From: Nitrospirota bacterium
GTDB taxonomy: Bacteria > Nitrospirota > Thermodesulfovibrionia > Thermodesulfovibrionales > Dissulfurispiraceae
Length of the DNA: 64,000 bases
Direction: 5' to 3'
Assembly (NCBI GenBank): GCA_023476565.1
Contig: JAMCVZ010000014.1
Coordinates: 1 to 64,000, forward strand
Position 1 is the first letter of the stretch. Each line of letters begins with the position of its first letter. Position numbers and translations under genes: made by a program. This document shows, one piece after another, positions 9,930 to 37,354 of the stretch. The notes under the pieces were generated by a model. It saw nothing but the letters and a program-made list of their open reading frames with translations. It did no database searches and was not told the origin of the DNA.

Positions 9930-10229
9930 TTAAGACAGAGGCGGTTTATCTAACGAATAAGAAAGAATGGAAAGGTGAGCGGAATTGCCGATTTCCGGGA
10001 GGCGATGTATTGCCGGAAAGAACAGTATGAGCAGGGAAAAAGACACCAGCGCATACGCGATACCCGCTGAATGGATATCATGGCTGCTGCAGACATCAAG
10101 GGACAGCAGGGAAACGGGCAGACCGGAATCGTTTAAAGGGGCTGAATAGAAAAAGAGAACGAGGCAGGGCGCAAGGGAAAAAAGCACCAACAGGGAAACC
10201 ACCTTTGCGATTGCCGGCTTCATTTTCAT
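9930..10229 (-). CDS. Small two-helix membrane protein at the end of cluster A
   Basis: About 99 residues, not assigned to a family with certainty. The sequence shows a first membrane segment (AKVVSLLVLFSLAPCLVLFF), a short loop with DVCSSHDIHSAG, then a second membrane segment (IAYALVSFSLLILFF) and a polar tail. The Cys-containing loop facing one side of the membrane recalls small DUF4418-like proteins that accompany FtsX-type permeases, but this is tentative. It follows the ATPase gene by 77 bases on the same strand. The ribosome site is weak; starts at 10229 or a TTG at 10244 are possible. Confidence 0.5.
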   Translation of the reverse strand: MKMKPAIAKVVSLLVLFSLAPCLVLFFYSAPLNDSGLPVSLLSLDVCSSHDIHSAGIAYALVSFSLLILFFPAIHRLPEIGNSAHLSILSYSLDKPPLS

Positions 10230-10306
10230 CACTAAAATTAACAAAAATGTGCAACTCTGTCAATATAAATTTAAAAAGTTTGGATTTGTCGTGTCTAAAG
10301 GGCGGG

Positions 10307-11002
10307 CTACAGTGTCGCGATCGCGCCCTGGCTCATTCTCATCTGCCGCCTGGTCTGCTTCGCTATGTCGGTATTGTGGGTGACCATGATAAAGGTGATC
10401 CGCCTCTCCTCATTCACCTTTTTAAAAAGCCTCATCATATCGCTTTCCGTCTCTTCATCCAGGTCGCCGGTCGGCTCATCGGCGAGTATTATTTCGGCAT
10501 CGTTCATAAAGGCGCGTGCTATGGCGACGCGGCGCTGCTGCCCTCCAGACAACTGCGAGGGATAAGCATTGATTTTATCGCCCAGGCCTACCATCCCCAG
10601 CAGCTCTACGGCCTTCCGCTCATTGGCATCCGCCCCACCCGCACGCCGGCCGTTTTTGAAAACCACGGGCAGCATGAGGTTCTCTTTTACCGTAAGCATG
10701 GGCAGAAGACTTGCGAACTGGAACATGAACCCTATCGTCTCGCACCGGTACTCCGAAAGCCGGTCGCTGTCAAAGGAATAGATATCCGTACCCTCGAACA
10801 AAACCCTGCCGGATGTGGGCTTCACAATGCCGCCGATTATCGAGAGCAGCGTCGTCTTTCCGGACCCGGAATGCCCGACAATGGATATGAACTCGCCTCT
10901 GTTTACTTCGAGCGATGCATTGTTGACGGCATGAATTGATTCGTTGCCGATTACATAGCTTTTCATGATATTTTCCATGAGCAATTGCGGCATGGCTTTC
11001 AT
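10307..11002 (-). CDS. ABC transporter ATP-binding protein, LolD/MacB type (cluster A)
   Basis: A 231-residue ABC ATPase. Walker A is GHSGSGKTTLL, the signature LSGGQQRRVAIARAF, and Walker B with its D-loop ILADEPTGDLDEETE. Closest in type to LolD/FtsE/MacB ATPases, which drive FtsX-fold permeases by mechanotransmission rather than classical transport. Its start overlaps the stop of the permease gene (ATGA), so the two are translationally coupled. A paralogue with very similar motifs is at 33396-34106 in cluster B. Confidence 0.93.
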   Translation of the reverse strand: MKAMPQLLMENIMKSYVIGNESIHAVNNASLEVNRGEFISIVGHSGSGKTTLLSIIGGIVKPTSGRVLFEGTDIYSFDSDRLSEYRCETIGFMFQFASLLPMLTVKENLMLPVVFKNGRRAGGADANERKAVELLGMVGLGDKINAYPSQLSGGQQRRVAIARAFMNDAEIILADEPTGDLDEETESDMMRLFKKVNEERRITFIMVTHNTDIAKQTRRQMRMSQGAIATL

Positions 11003-12195
11003 TCTCCTTTTATGACAACGAGCGGCTCCAGCCTTTTGACTTTCCGGACCGGTGAAAGTGCGCCGATAATGCAGACTCCGGTCCCGATGGCAAGACCCGA
11101 CAGGGCTATGAGCGAGCGCTCGACGATACCCAGGTCCGTCGATATGTTTTTCAGGATCGTGAAACTCTTTGCCAGCGCCAGCGAGAGGGCCGTTCCCGAA
11201 ATGATCCCGAGCACACTGCCCAGGCTCCCGATGATGAAGACTTCAAGGATGAAGAGCTTGACGATGTGCGACTCCTTTGCGCCGATCGCCCTCATAATCC
11301 CGACCTCTCTCGACCTCTCGTTTGCAATTGCTGAGAACACCGCCCATGCAAGAAATGCGGCGAGTACGGAAGCAAGCGTTACGGTAACGGCGAAGATCTG
11401 GTTAATGTCCCTCAACGCATTGATTATATTTTTGCCTATGTCCTTCCGCGCGATAGTGTCCACCTCAATAACGGAATCCTCGATCTCCCCGGCGACTTTG
11501 TAAGGATCAAGCCCCTTTTTGACCTTTGCGAAAACAACGGATATCTGCCCCGGCTGTATGCTCGATTTGCCCTTCCTGATGATATCGTCGATATTGCTCT
11601 CATCGATGAACAATGCGGTGTCAAGTCCTGTCCCTGTCTTATCGAGAACGCCGACCATCTTGAACACATTGCCGAACAGCACGCTGTCTACATCCACGAG
11701 CCCGACACTGATATTGAAGGCCGACTCGCTCCCGACAATGGCCTCCCCTTTCCGGAGCCTTCTGCCCAGCTTTTTGGTGAGCCACGGCTTGATAACGAAA
11801 TCGGTATCCTGGTTGAATGCGACAACTACCGACTCGGGCACATCGCAGCAAAGCCCGGACAGGGTAACCAGATAGGTCTGGTACGTCATTTTATCAATGC
11901 CTTTAACCTTCCTGATCTTTTCAATAACGCCTTTATCCATATAGAATGATTTCGCTTTGTTTTCGAGCAGCACATCCTCTGCCGCCCCCCTCGATCCCGT
12001 CGGCACGATGAGCAGGTCCGCGCCCAGCCGGTCGGAAGTCATCTTGATGCTTGAATCAACGCGCCTGATAAAGGACAGGGCAAACACGAGAGCGGTTACC
12101 AGCAGCCCGATGGCAACAGCCAGTATCACTGTCCTCAAGGGTTTTCTTTTCAGGTTCCTGACCGCAAGTGAAAGCAGCGTAAATTCTTTTGTCAT
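10999..12195 (-). CDS. FtsX/MacB-type ABC permease with periplasmic Cys-Cys pair (cluster A)
   Basis: A 398-residue permease. One N-terminal membrane helix (TVILAVAIGLLVTALVFALS) is followed by an extracytoplasmic domain of about 220 residues, then three C-terminal helices with the FtsX-domain segment SREVGIMRAIGAKESHI. The periplasmic domain contains SGLCCDVPESVVVAFNQ; the Cys-Cys pair and the following TDF-I-PWL motif recur in the cluster B paralogue. It is predicted to work with the ATPase downstream. The partner is likely to be periplasmic or lipid-anchored; the upstream beta-propeller cytochrome is the obvious candidate. A long hairpin separates it from that gene. Confidence 0.88.
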   Translation of the reverse strand: MTKEFTLLSLAVRNLKRKPLRTVILAVAIGLLVTALVFALSFIRRVDSSIKMTSDRLGADLLIVPTGSRGAAEDVLLENKAKSFYMDKGVIEKIRKVKGIDKMTYQTYLVTLSGLCCDVPESVVVAFNQDTDFVIKPWLTKKLGRRLRKGEAIVGSESAFNISVGLVDVDSVLFGNVFKMVGVLDKTGTGLDTALFIDESNIDDIIRKGKSSIQPGQISVVFAKVKKGLDPYKVAGEIEDSVIEVDTIARKDIGKNIINALRDINQIFAVTVTLASVLAAFLAWAVFSAIANERSREVGIMRAIGAKESHIVKLFILEVFIIGSLGSVLGIISGTALSLALAKSFTILKNISTDLGIVERSLIALSGLAIGTGVCIIGALSPVRKVKRLEPLVVIKGE

Positions 12196-12224
12196 AATGC
12201 AGGTATTATAGTGGATTTTTGGAT

Positions 12225-12260
12225 ATTCTTTCTATGCGGCCGGGGCCGCATAGAAAGAAT
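12225..12260. other. 17-bp perfect hairpin between cytochrome and permease genes (cluster A)
   Basis: ATTCTTTCTATGCGGCC (12225-12241) is perfectly inverted at 12244-12260, with a two-base loop. It lies just downstream of the cytochrome stop and upstream of the permease start, both on the minus strand. No T-run follows, so it is either an inefficient terminator or an RNA-stabilising or processing element that sets the ratio between the two products. A TATAAT box on the minus strand (12205-12210) lies between it and the permease ATG. Confidence 0.75.
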
Positions 12261-12275
12261 AACAAAGAAAGGAGC

Positions 12276-13412
12276 TTATTTTTTCCAGTTGCCGTCCACG
12301 CCGCAGAGGACCGCGCTCTTGTCGCCGAGGGCCATGCCTTTATGGCAGCCGAGGCAGACCGACGCGGTTTTGCCTACGATCCTCTTGGCATCGACATCGT
12401 ACAGTTGGAGGGTTCCATCGGTAATCATCTTGCCGGGGATCGCCTTGCCGTTTGCATCGCATCCCTCGGTGTTTGTCCTCAGTGTCAGGACCGCATATTT
12501 GCCGTCAGGGGTCGGCATTGCATCGTGGTTCTGTCCGCCGGCGCTCATTTTCTCGTCAACGAGCTTCAGGGTGCTTCCGTCAAGCAGCCAGAATCTGTCC
12601 GCAGCCGACTGGAAGACGTACTTGTCATCCGGGCTGAAATACTGTCTGAAGGTGATGGTCTTTCCGGGCTCGCCGGTAAGCGTATTGCGTGCAAGCTCTT
12701 TGAATTTCCCTTTCTCAAGGGAGGCCATATCAACGAGTATGAAATCAACCTTCCCGTTGGCCTTTCCGTCCTCGCCCTTCATGGTTACGGTGAGGAGGAA
12801 TTTTTTCATGTCATTGGAGTTGGTGCCATGCAGGAATACGTAGGTGCCGGATTTGTATCCGAGGTCGCTGATGAACACCCTGTGCTTGTGCCCGAGGGTC
12901 GCCTTGTCGAATATGTCGACGTAGCCCTCATTGCCCATAAACACCGGCATAAAATACTTCCTGGACTGTCCTGAAGCACAGTAGAGCGGCGGCTTGGTAC
13001 CCGGGGACCTCTTGTCCGGATCAAGCGCTACGTCCTTTATAACGTTGCCTGTTTTGAGATCTGATTTGCCGACATGCGCCTTCCCTTTGGGGTCCAGTAC
13101 ATACGTTGTCCAGAACATCGTGTTTCTGTCATTAACATCCACCCGTGGATCATGGGTAGGATGCGTTGTTTTGTCACCAATGACAACTCTGTCAAGGTTA
13201 TTCACCTTTATTGGATTGTCAGTATCGTTCGGATCTATGGTTACATCCGCCTTCGCAAAATGGCCGCCCATACCGGCTACGTAAAGTGTCGATGAGTAAG
13301 TCTTCTTTGCAGCGGCGGCAATCGGAGTTTTAGACCCGACGATGCTGAAGCCGAGATAGCCTGTAACAGCAATTGCCATTATTCCCAATACACCAACCAA
13401 TCTTTTTTTCAT
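12276..13412 (-). CDS. Beta-propeller protein with C-terminal haem-c site (cluster A)
   Basis: A 378-residue exported protein. An N-terminal signal or anchor (GVLGIMAIAVTGYLGFSIVG) precedes a beta-propeller-like body with repeated DPKGKAHVG, FSPDDKYVF and PTPDGKYAVL blades, as in cytochrome d1/YncE-like proteins. Near the N-terminus is LYVAGMGGHFA; at the C-terminus are one haem-c site CLGCH and SAVLCGVDGNW. The paralogue at 36079-37195 shares all these landmarks. Function is unknown: a periplasmic electron-carrying or sensing propeller is likely. The ATG at 13412 follows GGGGGG; an upstream in-frame start at 13496 is less likely because it precedes the signal sequence by 28 residues. Confidence 0.82.
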   Translation of the reverse strand: MKKRLVGVLGIMAIAVTGYLGFSIVGSKTPIAAAAKKTYSSTLYVAGMGGHFAKADVTIDPNDTDNPIKVNNLDRVVIGDKTTHPTHDPRVDVNDRNTMFWTTYVLDPKGKAHVGKSDLKTGNVIKDVALDPDKRSPGTKPPLYCASGQSRKYFMPVFMGNEGYVDIFDKATLGHKHRVFISDLGYKSGTYVFLHGTNSNDMKKFLLTVTMKGEDGKANGKVDFILVDMASLEKGKFKELARNTLTGEPGKTITFRQYFSPDDKYVFQSAADRFWLLDGSTLKLVDEKMSAGGQNHDAMPTPDGKYAVLTLRTNTEGCDANGKAIPGKMITDGTLQLYDVDAKRIVGKTASVCLGCHKGMALGDKSAVLCGVDGNWKK

Positions 13413-13576
13413 AAACTTTTCCCCCCATTTTATATCTTTAATTTTTGGCCATACCCCGCCTCTTGAATACCTCCCTGATATCTCTTCCTCATTCACCCCC
13501 TTTCTCCCTCAAAATAATATCATTTTTTATCATCGATACATCTAAAGTCAACATCAAGTTTAAAATTCAGATTTCC

Positions 13577-14059
13577 TCAATGGTCATGGTGATGGGCGCT
13601 GTCAGAAGTCCTGGTAAATTTTAAGGGGACCTGTTTCTCCCCCGATTTTTCAAACATCAGATACAAGGTAAACTCATGCCCATCCTTGATATCTTTCGGC
13701 ATCTTGAATATCATGATATGCAAACCCTTCGGCTTCAGTTCCACCGTGCTCCTGGCAGGGATGGGGATTTTTTCCGTTTTTGCCATCCTCCCGTCCTTGA
13801 CCTCGTGGAGCTCGGCAACACTGCCCGGGATACCGGCCCTTGCTGAAAGGAGGTTATCATCACCGTTCCCGGAATTCTCGATCTTCATAAACACAGAGCC
13901 GACACCCAGCATGGCGGGAGATAATCTGGCTTCCTGTCCCTGAATGCTGATCTGGGGTACCCTGGGGGAGACACCCATCCCTATCGCAATCCCGGGCAGG
14001 ATTACGATAAGAGGTATTACCAAAAGCACAGCTCCCGATCTGTACATGCCTTTACTCAT
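13577..14059 (-). CDS. PCu(A)C-type periplasmic copper chaperone
   Basis: A 160-residue protein with an N-terminal membrane or signal segment (AVLLVIPLIVILPGIAIGMG). The PCu(A)C domain has MKIENSGNGDDNLLSARA, AELHEVKDGRM and GLHIMIFKM, the His/Met motif spacing that binds Cu(I). A His-rich tail HHHDH ends the protein. In characterised bacteria this family delivers copper to the CuA site of cytochrome oxidase or to other periplasmic copper proteins. It is the first gene of cluster A, 165 bases upstream of the beta-propeller cytochrome. Start chosen at 14059, five bases after GGAGG. Confidence 0.88.
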   Translation of the reverse strand: MSKGMYRSGAVLLVIPLIVILPGIAIGMGVSPRVPQISIQGQEARLSPAMLGVGSVFMKIENSGNGDDNLLSARAGIPGSVAELHEVKDGRMAKTEKIPIPARSTVELKPKGLHIMIFKMPKDIKDGHEFTLYLMFEKSGEKQVPLKFTRTSDSAHHHDH

Positions 14060-14153
14060 AGCCACCTCCGCATTTTTCGATATCCTTTCGGATAAAATAC
14101 CTCATAAATAATACCTTTTAAAAAACCCGGAGTCAATGTTTATCGAGTCTTCC

Positions 14154-14301: not shown

Positions 14302-16704
14302 TTATCTAACCTCTACGGAAAAATTTCTCTTTTCCCATTGTCCGGCTTCAGTCCAATGGAACGTGAACTCCACCGTTCCATTGACGGGAATTTGTTTCGT
14401 CAAAAGGTCGGCACAGTGGACCCCGAGCCCCGTATCCTGCGTAGGAGTGTCTTGCACCGTGCGCCAGCCGTCGGCGGTCCAGTGCACCGTTGCCTGCGCC
14501 AACACCTCAAGCCGGAGCGTCCTGCCCGGCGCCATGGTCCGGCACTTGTGGTTGAACCGCCAGATGGCGTAGGGCGACCCGCTCTTTTTCACCTGGTAGC
14601 GCCGGACGGCCTGTGGCGGGAGATCGAACACGCGGCCATCACGCAAAGACCGTCTCAGTTTTACATACTCGGAATGGGCCCAGACCAGCGGCATGGCCGA
14701 GCCCGAGGGCTTGCCGAAGAAGAGCTCCTTTTCCGGGATGTCAGGGGCGTCCCAAACCTGCTCGGACAGCATTCCTCCCTCATTGGCAAAGGCCTCCATC
14801 GTCAATTTGAGCTGTTCCGCTTTAGCACGACGGCCCGCGGCAAGTTCGTAATGGCCGCGCTCTCCCGTAAGCAGCGGCCAGGCCCTTCCGATGCCCGTGC
14901 CGTCGAAGGGAGAACCGTCCGCGTGCTCACCGTAACCGTCGTCATTGTACCGGCGCCAGGAAGGGCCGTAGGGTGTTTCAACCTTTAAGAGGGCGTCAAT
15001 GACCTTCACAGTATTCACGATGCGCGGGTCATCGGCTGCGCGCAGGCCGAAGCGGACCAGGGCCAGGGCGTCGGGGCTCACGATATGAACGGCGGGCTCG
15101 GCGCTCTGGCCCACGGGCCGGTTCTTGATCGGCACGAACCCCGCTGCCGGAGATGCTGCATCAGCTTCTTCCGGCGGGGCGATGCGCACGTAGTACCCCT
15201 CTACTCCCACGCGCGTTGCCAGCTCCGTGCCGGTCACGTAGACCCAGCGTTCGATGTTCGCGTTCCAGACATCTGCGGTTTCGCGGAGGTACGCGGCGGC
15301 CCCGGGCTCATGGTTCATCCCGGCAAGATCCGCTGCGACCAGCAAGGCCGCGATCTCAACGGCAAGTGTGAAGGGCGAGTAGCCCGCATCTTCCTCCCAG
15401 CGGTCCTGCTGCGTTACCGGACCGTTTTGCACGAGAAAGCTTGCCGCCCTTCGCACCATGGGCCAGAGCCTGGTCAGATCGCCCTTGTCCAGCGCCTTCT
15501 CCCTTCGCGCCAGGTCAACGAGAAGGATGGGGAAGGCGGTCTCGTCCATCTGGATGCCGCTCCAGTACGGCATGCCGTCGAGCCACATGTTCTGCGGCCA
15601 GTATCCATCCGCTTCCTGCGTAACCTGAAGATAGCGAAGTGCACGAAGGACATCTTCCCGCGCCCCTGCAGCCAGGAGACCTCCGGCGGATTCGACCAGG
15701 TCCCGCGGCCACACAAGATGGTATCCGCCGAGATCATCATCGCCTTTTGAAAAACCCCACGGAATGGCAAGGCTGGCGATCAGGCCGCCGGGAAAACGTT
15801 TTGACTCGTGGGCACGGAGGACCGCGGTGCTCACCCGGAACAGATTATGGTTGTCCGTCTTGCCTCCGTCCATGATCGGCAGCGTTCGCTGCCACGCCTG
15901 CCACTCGCTGGTGTACAGCGTCTGCGCTGCCTCGAACCCGTCGTACAGACTTGCCAGGGCCCGGTTCCCTGCTTCGGCGGAAGTATTGCCGAACCCCAGG
16001 GCGAGCAGGAACGTACCGTTGCTTGCTTCGAGGTCGACCTCACCGCACATTGACACGTTGCCGTTCTCGGCGCGCGTATATTCCCGGACCATCAGCTTGC
16101 TGCACATCAGGTCCTGCCATGTATCGGATACTCCGACAAAGCCGGTAGAACGCTTGAGCCACGGCGCTGAACAAGCCAGCGCCAGGCCATTGCCGCCGCG
16201 CTCCGCAAAGAGCATGGGCACGCCTTTATAATCGCCGACCCATGCGGTGTTGCCGGCGCCGTAGTTGCCGAGGTGCGGCGCCAGGAGGACGTAAAGATGA
16301 TAGTCTTCCAGTCTTCCCTGCAGAGCAGTGAAGCGCGTCTGCTGGAGCACAACGTCCCTTCGAGGGTCTGTGATGATATCCTTCTCGATCCGGTAACGTC
16401 CTTCCCGTGAGGTGTTTACCAGGTGGTAGGCCGGAACGCCGTCAACGGGATAAGCCACCGTGGATGAGGCATGGCGCTTTTCCTCGGAGAAAAAATCACG
16501 GCCATCGGTGACGATGAGGCCCAGATCGCGCGTACACGCCTGGTCCACGCGGGGATAGTATATCTCGTTCAGGATGCCGTGGCTCAGGGTGAACCAGACG
16601 CGGCTGGCAGGGCTGAGGGACGTCCCAACCCCGCTCTTCGCGCTCGATGTCCAGCGTGCCGGGATGCCCGGCCATCCGGGTGCATAAAGAATCGGTGCAA
16701 CCAT
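14302..16704 (-). CDS. Glucoamylase, glycoside hydrolase family 15
   Basis: An 800-residue protein without an obvious signal peptide, so probably cytoplasmic or released by another route. The N-terminal beta-sandwich region includes SRVWFTLSHGILNEIYYPR. The (alpha/alpha)6 catalytic domain contains YHLVWPRDLVESAGG, GYWPQNMWLDGMPYWSGIQ with the MDET acid segment, and TGERGHYELA holding the presumed second carboxylate. These are GH15 glucoamylase/glucodextranase features. It releases glucose from the non-reducing ends of alpha-glucans. It is last in a tight minus-strand operon after a sugar porter and glucose dehydrogenase (26-base gap), and an inverted repeat lies at its 3' side. Confidence 0.93.
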   Translation of the reverse strand: MVAPILYAPGWPGIPARWTSSAKSGVGTSLSPASRVWFTLSHGILNEIYYPRVDQACTRDLGLIVTDGRDFFSEEKRHASSTVAYPVDGVPAYHLVNTSREGRYRIEKDIITDPRRDVVLQQTRFTALQGRLEDYHLYVLLAPHLGNYGAGNTAWVGDYKGVPMLFAERGGNGLALACSAPWLKRSTGFVGVSDTWQDLMCSKLMVREYTRAENGNVSMCGEVDLEASNGTFLLALGFGNTSAEAGNRALASLYDGFEAAQTLYTSEWQAWQRTLPIMDGGKTDNHNLFRVSTAVLRAHESKRFPGGLIASLAIPWGFSKGDDDLGGYHLVWPRDLVESAGGLLAAGAREDVLRALRYLQVTQEADGYWPQNMWLDGMPYWSGIQMDETAFPILLVDLARREKALDKGDLTRLWPMVRRAASFLVQNGPVTQQDRWEEDAGYSPFTLAVEIAALLVAADLAGMNHEPGAAAYLRETADVWNANIERWVYVTGTELATRVGVEGYYVRIAPPEEADAASPAAGFVPIKNRPVGQSAEPAVHIVSPDALALVRFGLRAADDPRIVNTVKVIDALLKVETPYGPSWRRYNDDGYGEHADGSPFDGTGIGRAWPLLTGERGHYELAAGRRAKAEQLKLTMEAFANEGGMLSEQVWDAPDIPEKELFFGKPSGSAMPLVWAHSEYVKLRRSLRDGRVFDLPPQAVRRYQVKKSGSPYAIWRFNHKCRTMAPGRTLRLEVLAQATVHWTADGWRTVQDTPTQDTGLGVHCADLLTKQIPVNGTVEFTFHWTEAGQWEKRNFSVEVR

Positions 16705-16730: not shown

Positions 16731-18104
16731 TTATTTCTTCCCCATCTCGCGGGGATGTTTAGCGGCCCGCCAATGGGCCTCGATGTCTTCCAGGCTCCGT
16801 CCTTTTGTTTCAGGCGCCAGAACATAAGCGAATATCCAAGCCCCGATGCTGAGCAGCCCGTACAGCCAAAAAGTTCCCGGCCGTCCCAGAACCTGAACAA
16901 GTGTGAGAAAGGTGAGGGCAACGAGCAGGTTTGCACCCCAGTTGGCAACGGTGGCGATGCTCATGGCCAGACCCCTGATCTTCACGGGATATATTTCTGA
17001 AATCAGCAGCCAGAAGACCGGCCCCAGGCCCACGGCAAAAGAACCGACGTAGAGCATCAGGCTTCCCGCGGCAAACCACTTCAAGACGCGAAGGTGGGGG
17101 AACAGGAAGGCCGTGCCGAGCACTGCCAGACTGATGACCATGCCGGCCAGGCCGGTCAACAGCAACGGCCGTCGTCCCACGCGGTCCAAAAGCAGCAGCG
17201 CCACAACGGTCATCAACACGTTGATAACGCCCACGCCTGTTGTTGCAAGAATAGCGACTGACGCGGACTCGATTCCGGCGGATTGAAAGATGGTCGGCGC
17301 ATAGTAGATGACCGTGTTGATGCCCGTCACCTGCTGGAACAGGGCCAGGCCGATGCCGACGATCATAGCCGGTCTGAGCAACGGGCTTGACAGCTCGACC
17401 CAGTTGCCGCTCTGCTGTGCGGAGCTTCGGCGGATGTCCTGCACCTCATCGTCAACAGCGGCTGTTCCGCGGATACGCTGAAGCACGGAGCGTCCCTTGT
17501 CCACCATCCCGCGGCTCACAAGCCAGCGCGGACTTTCAGGCATGAACACCATCCCTATTCCCAGCAGGGCTGACGGGACCGCGGCCAGACCGAACATCCA
17601 GCGCCACCCCCGCATGCCGGACAACGCATAGTCCACGAGATATGCAATGACAATTCCGCTGGTGAGCGCAATCTGGTTGAAAGAGACGAACCGGCCGCGC
17701 ATGGTGACGGGAGATATCTCGGAAATGTAAAGCGGAGCTGTAAAGGAGGCCACGCCGATGGCGATACCGACGATAACCCGGCCAATGATCAGCCAGGTGA
17801 TCGTGGGCGCCAGGGCCGTGCCGACAGCGCCCAGGGCAAAGAGGGCCGCTGTCAGTACGAGTATGATGCGCCGTCCAAAGCGGTCGGTCAGAGTGCCGCC
17901 CGCAACGGCGCCGAGCATTGCCCCGAACACAACGGAGCTGACAACGACCTCTTCAAGGGTCGGTGAGAGAGCGAAGTCCTGCTGAATGAAGAGGATGGCG
18001 CCTGAGATGACGCCGGTGTCGTATCCGAAAAGCATGCCGCCCAGCGCTGAGATTGCCGCGGCAATGTAAACAAAGCGCGGACTGTTATCGGCTCTGCTCA
18101 TCAT
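16731..18104 (-). CDS. MFS sugar porter (XylE/GalP type)
   Basis: A 457-residue 12-helix transporter. Family signatures are all present: DRFGRR between helices 2 and 3, PESPRWLVSRG after helix 6, QQVTGINTVIYYAPTIF in helix 7, and PETKGRSLEDIE after helix 12. It is likely a proton-coupled hexose importer in the inner membrane. It lies between glucose dehydrogenase (23-base gap) and glucoamylase (26-base gap) on the same strand, which points to glucose as substrate. Confidence 0.93.
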   Translation of the reverse strand: MMSRADNSPRFVYIAAAISALGGMLFGYDTGVISGAILFIQQDFALSPTLEEVVVSSVVFGAMLGAVAGGTLTDRFGRRIILVLTAALFALGAVGTALAPTITWLIIGRVIVGIAIGVASFTAPLYISEISPVTMRGRFVSFNQIALTSGIVIAYLVDYALSGMRGWRWMFGLAAVPSALLGIGMVFMPESPRWLVSRGMVDKGRSVLQRIRGTAAVDDEVQDIRRSSAQQSGNWVELSSPLLRPAMIVGIGLALFQQVTGINTVIYYAPTIFQSAGIESASVAILATTGVGVINVLMTVVALLLLDRVGRRPLLLTGLAGMVISLAVLGTAFLFPHLRVLKWFAAGSLMLYVGSFAVGLGPVFWLLISEIYPVKIRGLAMSIATVANWGANLLVALTFLTLVQVLGRPGTFWLYGLLSIGAWIFAYVLAPETKGRSLEDIEAHWRAAKHPREMGKK

Positions 18105-33395: not shown

Positions 33396-34106
33396 TCAAC
33401 GCTCTCGGTGCGATACCGTATTTATGAACGGAAGCACTGAGCCGCTGCTCATCCTGAGTTGCCGCCCCGCCTGCCCGGCGAGCTCGGAGCTATGGGTGAC
33501 CAGAAGAAAAGCGGTCTTCCTCTCCCTGTTCATCCTCTTGAACAATTCGATTACCTCCCGCTCCGTCTCTTCGTCGAGGTCCCCTGTCGGCTCATCCGCC
33601 AGGACGACCTCCGGCCTGTTTATGAAAGCCCGTGCAACGGCAACCCTCCTTTGCTGCCCGCCGGAGAGCTGGGACGGATATGAATCAGCCTTGTCTGCCA
33701 GCCCTACCAAACCGAGGAGTTCCCTCGCATAGCCTTCGACATCTTTACCGTAATTTCCGAAGGTAGTCGGGAGCATGATATTTTCGAGCGCAGTCAGGGT
33801 CGGCACGAGGCTTGAAAACTGGAATATAAAACTGATCTTCCTGTTCCTGAGCTCGGACAGGCTGTCGTCGTCCATCGACCAGATGTCTTTCCCGTCGATT
33901 ACAACCGACCCGGAATCCGGCTTTGTCAGGCCCCCGACAAGACTCAAAAGAGTGGTCTTGCCGCTGCCCGAATGCCCGATAATCGATACGATCTCCCCCG
34001 TGCCCATCGCGAAGCTTACCTTGTCAACCGCCTTTACGGTCTGCCCGCCGATGCCGTATGTTTTCGTAACGTTCCTGATATCTATCATTATGCCGTCTTT
34101 CAGCAT
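33396..34106 (-). CDS. ABC transporter ATP-binding protein, LolD/MacB type (cluster B)
   Basis: 236 residues. Walker A GHSGSGKTTLLSL, signature LSGGQQRRVAVARAF, Walker B ADEPTGDLDEETER. Close in motifs to the cluster A ATPase at 10307-11002. The ATG at 34106 overlaps the TGA of the TPR lipoprotein gene. The C-terminal tail (PFINTVSHRER) is unlike the cluster A enzyme and adjoins the kinase remnant, so the natural end may have been altered by a deletion. Confidence 0.92.
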   Translation of the reverse strand: MLKDGIMIDIRNVTKTYGIGGQTVKAVDKVSFAMGTGEIVSIIGHSGSGKTTLLSLVGGLTKPDSGSVVIDGKDIWSMDDDSLSELRNRKISFIFQFSSLVPTLTALENIMLPTTFGNYGKDVEGYARELLGLVGLADKADSYPSQLSGGQQRRVAVARAFINRPEVVLADEPTGDLDEETEREVIELFKRMNRERKTAFLLVTHSSELAGQAGRQLRMSSGSVLPFINTVSHRER

Positions 34107-34780
34107 CAAGGGCCCCCTTTGATCTCTTCCATGAGGGCCCCGGCAATACCGCTGTCGATGTCCTTCAAAGATTCATACTGCTGCAACGCGGCCTTTTTAT
34201 TTCCCGTCTTTATATAGGCAAACCCCAGGTTGTATCTCGCCGCCGCATATCCGGGGCGCAATTTTATCGCCTTTTTAAGGACGCCTATCTCCGCGTCCGT
34301 CCTGTTAAGCCTTCCATAGGCGACCCCCAGGTTATTGTAGGCAGGCGCATGTCCGGGCATATACTTGATCGCCTTTTTAAATGCGCCTACGGCCTCCGCG
34401 GGTTTGTTGAGACGGTCATACGCAGTGCCGATTTTAAAATACACATATCCCGTACCGGTTTTAAGCTCCGTCACTTTTTTATACGCTTCTATGGCCTCGG
34501 TATATTGGCCGTTGCGGTCATACAAATCGGCAAGATGATACCACGCGTCCGCATCCCCGGGATTTTCCTGAAGCCTTTTTTTTGTCTCAAGGAAAACCGA
34601 ATCGGTCGAATACGGATTTACTGCCTGACCTGCCTTCCTCCCGGGCGGAGAGCTGTCTTTCCCGCATGAGCCAAGCGCTGATATCATGAGGGTCAGCATT
34701 ACCAGGATGGATAATCCCCGCAGATACCTTTGTCCCCTCTCCTTTGCCTTTTCATTACTGCAATATTTAAAGGCTTCCAT
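34106..34780 (-). CDS. TPR-repeat lipoprotein (cluster B)
   Basis: 224 residues. A hydrophobic segment ends in the lipobox LGSC (about residue 37), then about five TPR units, for example DAWYHLADLYDRNGQYTEAI and APAYNNLGVAYGRLNRTDAE. It is predicted to be anchored in the periplasm and to act as a scaffold. It lies between permease and ATPase, an arrangement cluster A lacks. Start at 34780 follows GGGGGAG and is only four bases from the permease stop. Confidence 0.85.
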   Translation of the reverse strand: MEAFKYCSNEKAKERGQRYLRGLSILVMLTLMISALGSCGKDSSPPGRKAGQAVNPYSTDSVFLETKKRLQENPGDADAWYHLADLYDRNGQYTEAIEAYKKVTELKTGTGYVYFKIGTAYDRLNKPAEAVGAFKKAIKYMPGHAPAYNNLGVAYGRLNRTDAEIGVLKKAIKLRPGYAAARYNLGFAYIKTGNKKAALQQYESLKDIDSGIAGALMEEIKGGP

Positions 34781-34783
34781 CAA

Positions 34784-35992
34784 TCACTCCCCCTTCCTGA
34801 TGGCCGCGTACGGTTCCATTGTGCTTGCGGAGATTGCGGGGAGCAAGGATGAAAGGAGCCCGGTTATCATTGCGAATACCAGCGCACCCGCCGTCAGTTC
34901 AGCAAGCACAGTTGCGGACGGCACAAGGTAAGGGAGTTTAAGGCTGCTGAGGATAGGCCCCTTGAACGCGAGCAGGAGGACGGACCCGCCTGCCAATCCG
35001 GCTATGCCGCCTGCCGCGGAAATAATGACGGCCTCAGTAATGATAAGCCTGAAAATATACCCCCTCTTCGCGCCCATTGCCCTTAACAGGCCGAGTTCCC
35101 GCTGGCGCTCGTTCACCATCATCGAAAACGCAAAGCCCATCATGAGGAGGGCCAGTATCCATAGGACGGCGCTGACCGCAAGTATCCCTTTCAACAGGCC
35201 GCCCAATTGTTTCCTTACCGTATTGATGATTTCATCCGAGGCTATCGCTTTAATGCCCTCGATGTCGTGCTCCAGTCTTATGGCAACCCTGTCGGGAGTA
35301 TAGCCGTCCTGCACGCGAACAAGCACCGCCGATATTCTGCTCCTGTCCAGATCGATCGGCTGCATTGAATTCGCTTTTGAGTTTGCGGCCATGGTATAGG
35401 CCGCATCCATAGTCATAAAGGCCGACCGGTCGAAAAATTTCATTCCCGTCGGTTCCATGGTCCCTATCACCTTGAAAGGCGTTCCGAAAAACGGCACCGT
35501 GTCGCCGGTGATGAGAGGCACCTCCCTGCCCGTGATTATCTCATCGCCGGACAGCGGTTTTTTCAGGTTTTTCTCAAGCCACGGGGCAATCGTAAAATCG
35601 GTTGCCGGTTCGAATGCTATAAGAAAAACATCCACGCTGTAGCAGCAGGTAAAAGACGCAGGTTTGATGAAGAGCTGGGGGGACGCCTGCTTCACCCCCT
35701 CGACCCGCTTCACCTTTTCATAAACCGCCCTGTCCATATAAAAGCTTGTCGGCTCCCCGGCAAGCAATGCGGTACGGGCTTCGGAGACGTATTTCTCAGG
35801 GACGACCAGCACATCTGCGCCGAGCCTGTACGTGCCGATCTTCAAGGCATTCCGCATGCTGGATATGAAAAGGGTCGCGGAAAACAGTGTGCCGGTCACC
35901 ACGGTGACAGCCAGGAAAAGCAGCGCTGTTCTTATAATCTTCCTTCTGAGGTTTTTTACTGCGATCGAGAATGTGTTTAATCCTGTCTTCAT
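34784..35992 (-). CDS. FtsX/MacB-type ABC permease with periplasmic Cys-Cys pair (cluster B)
   Basis: 402 residues. An N-terminal helix (ALLFLAVTVVTGTLFSATLF), a periplasmic domain of about 230 residues and three C-terminal helices with RELGLLRAMGAKRGYIFRL. The periplasmic domain contains ASFTCCYSVDVFLIAFEPAT, where the Cys-Cys pair and the following TDFTIAPWL align with cluster A (CCDVPES, TDFVIKPWL). The 5' gene is a frameshifted beta-propeller cytochrome. Confidence 0.88.
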   Translation of the reverse strand: MKTGLNTFSIAVKNLRRKIIRTALLFLAVTVVTGTLFSATLFISSMRNALKIGTYRLGADVLVVPEKYVSEARTALLAGEPTSFYMDRAVYEKVKRVEGVKQASPQLFIKPASFTCCYSVDVFLIAFEPATDFTIAPWLEKNLKKPLSGDEIITGREVPLITGDTVPFFGTPFKVIGTMEPTGMKFFDRSAFMTMDAAYTMAANSKANSMQPIDLDRSRISAVLVRVQDGYTPDRVAIRLEHDIEGIKAIASDEIINTVRKQLGGLLKGILAVSAVLWILALLMMGFAFSMMVNERQRELGLLRAMGAKRGYIFRLIITEAVIISAAGGIAGLAGGSVLLLAFKGPILSSLKLPYLVPSATVLAELTAGALVFAMITGLLSSLLPAISASTMEPYAAIRKGE

Positions 35993-36024
35993 TGGGTCTT
36001 CAGAACGATATCGCTTTAGAAAGA

Positions 36025-36050
36025 GAGGGGGCAGATAAATCCGCCCCCTC
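36025..36050. other. GC-rich hairpin between cytochrome and permease genes (cluster B)
   Basis: GAGGGGGC (36025-36032) and GCCCCCTC (36043-36050) enclose ten bases. It occupies the same position as the 17-bp hairpin in cluster A, between the cytochrome stop and the permease start. No T-run follows on the minus strand. Confidence 0.65.
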
Positions 36051-36078
36051 CTGATCAGGGAAAATCATCAGTGCGCAC

Positions 36079-37195
36079 CTATTTGCCGGGATGCCAGTCT
36101 ATCTCGATGCCGCACAGCAGCGGCGAGCCCTTGTCGACTTTGACCTGTACTCCCGCAGCCTTATGGCATTCGGCACATGCAGATACCTTTCTCACGATAG
36201 AGTAGTTTTTCATATCCATGATGTTTAACGCGCTGTCATCACCGTACGTCCTCGAGGAAAGGAACGCATACTTGCCGTCGGCGGTGAATGCGAAGTCATG
36301 CGGCCTTACGTTATCGGGCAGGATGATGCGCTTTGTGATCTCGTCCTTGTTCGTATCGATAACGATGACCTGGCTCTTGTGCGTGCCCGGTTTCAGTCCC
36401 GGATCAAACTCGTTCGGAGCGCTCACCCAGAGTTCCTTTCCATCCGGGGTCATTCTTGCCTGATGGATGAAGGTCATTTCCGGGCTTGTTATCTCTTTTA
36501 TTTTCTTCTTGGTCTTCCAGTCATAAACGTAGACTGTTCCCGTCGGCATATCTGTGATGTAAGCCTTTTTATTGTTTTTGGTCCACTGGATGCCGCACAC
36601 GGCCTTGCCTATGGGCATCTTGTCGACCGTCTTTAATTTTTTCGGGTTCCATACATATACGTTACCGTTGGCCATGTCCTCAAAATATATATTGCCGTCC
36701 GGTCCTACGATAGTGCCGCAGAATTTGTCACCCACCTTGAAGGGACCTTCCTTTTTCCCGGTGGCGAGGTCGTATTTATAGACATTTCCGGCCAATGGCC
36801 AATGTGCCGACAATCATGACCTTCCTGCCTTTCTCGTTGATAAGGGCCTGGCCGTGGGTGCCGCCTGCCTTCTTTACCTCTTCGAAGTTCATTCCGGCGA
36901 TCTTGCCTTCCATTTCAGAGCCTGCCTCAGCAAAGACGATCCTGTCCTTTTCAATGTCCGTCGGCGGCTTCATTGTCCTCATGTCGATTATTGCCACGTG
37001 ACCGCCGTGTCCGGCAATGTAGGCAATAGCATTAAAAGCAGGCTCTTTTGCGGGTGTTACTTCCTTTGCTTCAATGACCTTCTCTTTTCCTGCAGCGCCG
37101 GCAGCGGGTATTCCATGATCAGGAGCACCGCTGAACACCAGATAGCCCGCAGCGGCAAGCGCCGTCACCAATACAACCATAAACTTTTTCACCAT
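36079..37195 (-). pseudogene. Beta-propeller protein with C-terminal haem-c site, frameshifted (cluster B)
   Basis: Two overlapping frames (start 37195 to about 36790, and about 36800 to 36079) encode one protein of about 369 residues. The N-terminal part has a signal segment (FMVVLVTALAAAGYLVFSG) and FNAIAYIAGHGGHVAIIDM. The C-terminal part has propeller blades (TPDGKELWVS, TADGKYAFLS), the haem-c site CAECH and SPLLCGIEIDWHPGK. Removing one copy of the 7-bp duplication at 36790-36803 restores VGTLAGNVYKYDLATG. All landmarks match the cluster A protein. It is broken as read, unless the duplication is an assembly error or a reversible switch. Start at 37195 follows GGAGG. Confidence 0.8.
36790..36803. 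repeat. 7-bp tandem duplication that shifts the reading frame
   Basis: GGCCAAT occurs twice in tandem (36790-36796 and 36797-36803). Seven is not a multiple of three, so the reading frame of the cluster B cytochrome is broken at this place. One copy gives an uninterrupted frame. Confidence 0.9.
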
Positions 37196-37354
37196 TCTTT
37201 TCCTCCCCGTTTTTCTGTTTTTGCTTTTCATTTTTCATACTGGATCGCTAAAGCTGCTTACATACTGCAATTGCAACCGAACGACTGATTTCCCCTGTCT
37301 CCTCACCCCCCTTTAGTTTCAATATACAGTTATAATGATATTCCTAAATATTGC

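Follow-up and report, generated by a model that had tools for sequence, protein, structure and literature searches.

To our knowledge, the assembly of metal clusters in periplasmic propeller enzymes is known, and then in part, for NosZ only. NosDFY, the ABC proteins of that system, are of a type other than the FtsX/MacB-type permease of the gene cluster described here. The chaperone NosL of the NosZ system delivers Cu(I), which it binds with attomolar affinity, to CuZ of NosZ, a propeller copper enzyme (PMC6530538). Thiocyanate dehydrogenase (TcDH), a tri-copper propeller, probably passes its electrons to a single-haem cytochrome that is a protein of its own (PMC9456337), and the TcDH active site consists of Lys103, His135, His136, Gln156, His206, Glu288, Asp314, His381, His437, His482, His528, Asp529 and Arg544 (PMC6504805). 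Four uncharacterised ABC subunits are encoded downstream of TcDH in the Thioalkalivibrio cluster, and copper acquisition has been suggested for them (PMC5328954). For some copies of the unit described below, the FetMP-FetABCDEF system comes nearest in gene content among described relatives (PMC10783030, PMC6083913).

Our analysis of a 64,000-nucleotide stretch (the window) from the 2.67 Mb draft genome of a Nitrospirota bacterium (96% completeness) confirmed the original prediction of five same-strand genes, which we call cluster A. All lie on the minus strand. An exported PCu(A)C copper chaperone (13577..14065; Pfam PF04314, 82.6 bits), probably starting at the ATG at 14059, has the sequence HX6MX21HXM, which resembles the canonical copper site, and is the sole copy in the genome. 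It is followed by an exported beta-propeller (12276..13496), recognised from its AlphaFold2 (AF2) model, its invariant residues and its adjacency to the permease gene, for which the ATG at 13412 is a likelier start than the GTG at 13496. The FtsX/MacB-fold permease (10999..12195; PF02687 at 68 bits) is assigned to what we call the Cys-Cys family by alignment, Foldseek and tree, and overlaps by four bases (10999-11002) with the gene of its partner, a LolD-like ABC ATPase (10307..11002; PF00005, nearest NCBIfam model LolD). The last gene encodes a small membrane protein with an SLDVC motif (9930..10244), recognised by its recurring relatives, some of which carry LDVC, LDTC or LNVC (loci L095, L065, L066, L175 and L176). 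Gaps of about 80 bp separate the propeller gene from its neighbours on each side, and about 60 bp precede the small gene. Cluster A is flanked by housekeeping and carbohydrate genes; upstream of it lie a glucodextranase-type GH15 enzyme (14302-16704) and a sugar transporter (16731-18104).

The propeller had no family in Pfam or NCBIfam and no match among PLSDB plasmids. Its AF2 model is a beta-propeller (pLDDT 89.8), for which Foldseek returned generic WD40, YncE and NirN matches alone, their query TM-scores being under 0.5. As predicted, it has one C-terminal CxxCH, in the form CLGCH, and this motif is present in all 95 propellers that we aligned. The residues G77, G78, H79, G224, H324, D325, D331, R340 and C381-x2-C384-H385 are invariant over the same set, C173 and C398 each occur in 94 of the 95, and H115, M187 and H223 are additionally invariant in the 59 propellers of the cluster A type (subtype A). 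In the AF2 model the invariant residues are placed at the starts of inner strands, in one interstrand loop and in the last connection and, judging from the strand order, the invariant Cys and His would all face one side. A distant propeller (L061) contains a further CxxCH, a point in favour of haem at the motif, and we infer that the CxxCH of the family carries haem. The family is unnamed and probably consists of metal-containing haem proteins. The models of L-NosZ (NF052460) and hydrazine synthase beta matched a cluster B-type propeller (see below) weakly, far below the cut-off. A cd1-type nitrite reductase-like protein is encoded a few genes downstream of the cluster A core in one relative (L043, 12499-14118).

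The window permease has two adjacent cysteines, C116 and C117, and an AF..xTDF..xPWL stretch; the Cys-Cys pair lies in the periplasmic domain and is kept in 133 of 135 non-redundant permeases. Profile searches returned FtsX/MacB-type ABC models alone, and the tree places the Cys-Cys permeases in a single clade with respect to other FtsX permeases (support 0.991), within which both the cluster A-type permeases (0.998) and the TcDH-linked permeases, including one from Methylocella (0.997), form clades. Members of the family mostly score above 300 bits with the family profile. A group of related permeases of 563-581 amino acids (L139, L140, L142, L174-L177 and L194-L196) are extended at the N terminus by a domain of some 140 residues, apparently membrane-spanning and with a conserved C....HPE-like stretch; a DUF4418 origin of this domain was unsupported (hhalign probability 15). 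DUF4418 genes do adjoin related permease and ATPase genes in Firmicutes, Fusobacteria and Spirochaetes (L148, L151, L152 and L154), one such set being clustered with P19 and FtrD genes and another lying in a cysteine-metabolism context. No propeller was seen with the Firmicutes and Fusobacteria relatives that lie beside DUF4418 and Fet genes.

The pairing of propeller and permease is conserved. The propeller is present in 33 of 100 relatives and the permease profile finds matches in 59. Among the 135 permeases left after removal of near-identical copies, taken from loci in named genomes and relatives that were retrieved by the permease alone and annotated by script, 109 lie no more than 3.5 kb from a CxxCH propeller, a proportion inflated by a profile built from propeller-linked copies; five others are accompanied by TcDH and the remaining 21 by neither, several of the latter lying at contig ends. 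Copies of the permease that are about 30% identical still keep the gene order. The two genes thus do not lie apart in most genomes, the outcome that would have counted against the original prediction, and because the two are adjacent in most loci retrieved by the permease alone, the arrangement of cluster A is not due to chance. The hosts are mainly metagenome-assembled Nitrospirota and Desulfobulbales, with Desulfurivibrio sp. AMeS2 and Desulfogranum mediterraneum in addition. In a few loci (L034, L036, L038 and L048) the propeller stands alone.

Within four genes of the 109 propeller-linked permeases we found PCuAC in 22 loci, NosL in 20, FtrD-like proteins in 19, YeeE in 15 and TPR proteins in 22. 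PCuAC or NosL occurs in 36 of the 109, about two thirds having neither. Many of these genes are held together in four clusters (L174-L177). The genome of the window itself gave no match in a NosL search, and a search for FtrD-like proteins found none there or in any control genome. Proteins with a C_GCAxxG_C_C motif and CxxCH, of split-Soret-like type, are encoded near PCuAC and family permease genes in an archaeon (L131) and a member of the Nitrospirota (L064).

The window contains a second, divergent set of paralogous genes, also on the minus strand (cluster B, 33396-37231), with a propeller (36079..37231), a Cys-Cys permease (34784..35992), a TPR lipoprotein-like protein (34106..34783) and an ABC ATPase (33396..34109). 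This composition indicates that the conserved unit consists of propeller, permease and ATPase, with PCuAC, TPR proteins, NosL and FtrD-like proteins as variable additions. The cluster B propeller has an apparent frameshift near 36795-36800, which could mean either that the gene is broken or that the assembly is wrong at this point; several of its relatives have an open frame. In nine loci (L066, L067, L163, L172, L174, L176, L177, L180 and L181), a YeeE/YedE sulfur transporter gene lies directly or closely upstream of a cluster B-type propeller, which suggests a sulfur substrate.

The gap between the propeller and permease genes of cluster A encodes a perfect 17-bp hairpin (12224..12261, minus strand) with a predicted free energy of -28.7 kcal/mol and a z-score of -8.9. 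By the same measure, for which the shuffles were mononucleotide, a strong hairpin (z < -3) occupies this gap in 77 of 92 distinct loci, compared with 26 of 250 other same-strand gaps. It has a run of T residues in some loci and lacks one in others, the window included. The hairpin is a probable attenuator or mRNA stabiliser that probably allows the propeller to be made in excess of the ABC unit; its position 3' of the propeller gene fits an abundant protein served by a scarcer accessory machine.

TcDH provides the main lead. In five Nitrospirota loci (L186, L187, L188, L191 and L192), a Cys-Cys permease is encoded directly downstream of TcDH, as it is for five of the six TcDH matches in 296 genomes of the phylum. 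The TcDH of L187 matches the solved enzyme over nearly its full length (E 1.9e-197), and position mapping, with a near-constant offset, showed that the published active-site residues are kept in the five Nitrospirota proteins. In L187, TcDH and permease are followed by an ATPase, a second FtsX permease, a second ATPase and two small proteins. A more distant homologue of the permease lies behind a TcDH-like protein in Methylocella; this protein (L153, 6992-8899, on a plasmid of Methylocella tundrae) is annotated as hypothetical and has Gln at the position of the active-site His482. This arrangement agrees with the published gene order of the Thioalkalivibrio cluster, whose ABC genes would, on that order and the Nitrospirota and Methylocella cases, belong to the same family. 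Around the TcDH-linked permeases, neither PCuAC nor NosL occurs at a distance of up to four genes, and a TcDH search of the window's genome gave nothing at E 1e-20. The propeller profile matched TcDH weakly and in part; a specific homology is not supported, since hhalign gave 96.5% for TcDH and 94.8% for an ordinary YVTN propeller, with a low score for a cd1 protein.

These observations lead us to propose, at roughly even odds, that the operon specifies a redox protein of the periplasm, the beta-propeller, together with a dedicated unit for the maturation of its metal centre, working as NosDFY and NosL do for NosZ but without homology to that system. The propeller would be exported by Sec and would receive first haem c and then, in the periplasm and helped by PCuAC, a second metal; PCuAC, like NosL in relatives, would hand Cu(I) to it. 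The mature protein would hold one c-type haem next to a second site at the channel mouth, formed by invariant Cys and His residues and occupied most likely by copper. Through the Cys-Cys permease and the LolD-like ATPase, cytoplasmic ATP would drive a periplasmic step of assembly, thiol handling or reduction, the Cys-Cys pair handling a thiol, sulfur or Cu(I), much as NosDFY and NosL act on the CuZ propeller NosZ. We infer copper binding and, for the ABC unit, its maturation role, its direction and any cargo, as we do the metal, substrate and reaction of the propeller. More tentatively, and with less confidence than we place in the general scheme, the propeller may contain an undescribed mixed Cys/His metal centre, probably of copper, wired to the c-type haem, with the Cys-Cys ABC family serving propeller metalloenzymes in general, TcDH included, as a maturation machine unrelated to NosDFY. 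The original prediction of ATP-driven periplasmic delivery or recycling of copper or of the haem protein is partly supported: a unit of this kind concerned with copper or haem fits, given PCuAC or NosL in a third of the propeller loci and ABC genes of the same type behind TcDH; recycling of the haem protein found no support, and metal-centre maturation in the propeller fits better.

The strongest rival explanation casts the ABC unit as an exporter of a thiol, or as another source of periplasmic reducing power or sulfur, which the Cys-Cys pair would relay and which the propeller, TcDH and Fet systems would all need, with copper being incidental. The near-universal Cys-Cys pair, the FtrD-like (CxxC) and YeeE genes in 19 and 15 of the propeller loci, and a copy in Treponema that lies among cysteine-metabolism genes all agree with this, as does the suggestion by the authors of the Fet study that FetBCD is a source of reducing power (PMC10783030). 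We nonetheless consider it rather unlikely, as PCuAC and NosL turn up repeatedly, TcDH is itself a copper enzyme and no thiol-transport family is prominent among the permease matches. The copper neighbours might instead point to general copper import, export or homeostasis, in which the propeller would bind or sense copper and not be an enzyme, in line with the copper acquisition that has been put forward for the ABC subunits encoded behind TcDH (PMC5328954); the tight pairing with the propeller and its replacement by TcDH in one clade speak for a client-specific role, making this reading improbable.

Two further readings, each of which we also hold to have a low probability, start from the kinship of the ABC proteins. 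In Foldseek searches the permease shares its fold with LolCDE, MacB and HrtB, a haem exporter, the ATPase is nearest to LolD, and the partner propeller has a c-type haem motif, so that the unit might pull a lipoprotein, or else free haem, out of the membrane, for example in the biogenesis of cytochrome propellers. The two proteins are, however, far under the Lol cut-offs (226 bits against 307.75 for LolD and 29.4 against 362.45 for LolC/E), inspection showed no lipobox in the window propeller, and TcDH, a copper enzyme which is without CxxCH, uses the same ABC family; the resemblance to LolCDE and HrtBA is one of fold only. The other is a variant of FetMP-FetABCDEF iron uptake, with the haem propeller as an iron-binding or ferric-reductase component. 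FtrD-like proteins occur near some copies, and a Tissierellia genome clusters a Cys-Cys permease with P19, FtrD and two FtsX permeases. Set against this, P19 (PF10634) was found in only one of the 100 relatives (G007), with none in the window's genome, and G007 has, beside its propeller systems, a separate Fet-like cluster whose FetB/FetC-like permease pair (L207) scores 58-72 bits with the family and has no Cys-Cys; we reject the iron-uptake reading on these two grounds.

Several described systems resemble cluster A in part. The NosZ, NosL and NosDFY genes similarly unite a propeller copper enzyme, a Cu(I) chaperone and an ABC unit in one cluster, although the window propeller, which NosZ models did not match, is not NosZ and the permease is of the FtsX/MacB and not the NosY type. 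FetMP-FetABCDEF of C. jejuni and E. coli has FtsX permeases and a LolD-like ATPase in common with the unit, as well as the FtrD-like proteins near some copies, whereas FTR1 and P19 are absent at the cluster A locus and the permeases belong to another subfamily. LolCDE, MacB and HrtBA agree in permease fold and in the nearest ATPase models, but cluster A falls below the family cut-offs, its ATPase and permease are separate genes, unlike the fused MacB, and neither MacA, LolA nor a fused ATPase domain is found at the locus. The prediction that no described system has this composition held for the full set, as literature searches returned no paper describing the five genes together; it was only partly right, since four uncharacterised ABC subunits have been published as part of the Thioalkalivibrio TcDH cluster (PMC5328954).

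The core of cluster A is a conserved, unnamed system with a new propeller family, whose known part is the uncharacterised ABC unit beside TcDH. As in cluster A, a periplasmic beta-propeller gene is followed in the TcDH cluster by ABC genes and, in Nitrospirota, the permeases are of the same Cys-Cys FtsX family; sigma-54 two-component genes lie beside TcDH and likewise beside the haem-propellers of L065 and L068. The TcDH cluster has two ABC pairs where cluster A has one, and cluster A adds PCuAC. The window propeller is not TcDH: it has its own CxxCH and an invariant set that includes Cys, and where TcDH would hand its electrons to a separate cytochrome, the window family has a CxxCH within the propeller itself. 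That one ABC type is common to TcDH and the haem-propeller suggests for it a role in building or maintaining the metal sites of propeller enzymes of this sort. A unit of this kind would be a second, independent case of propeller metal assembly, widespread in Nitrospirota and Desulfobulbales, that would add an unnamed haem-propeller family and would account for the orphan ABC genes beside TcDH.
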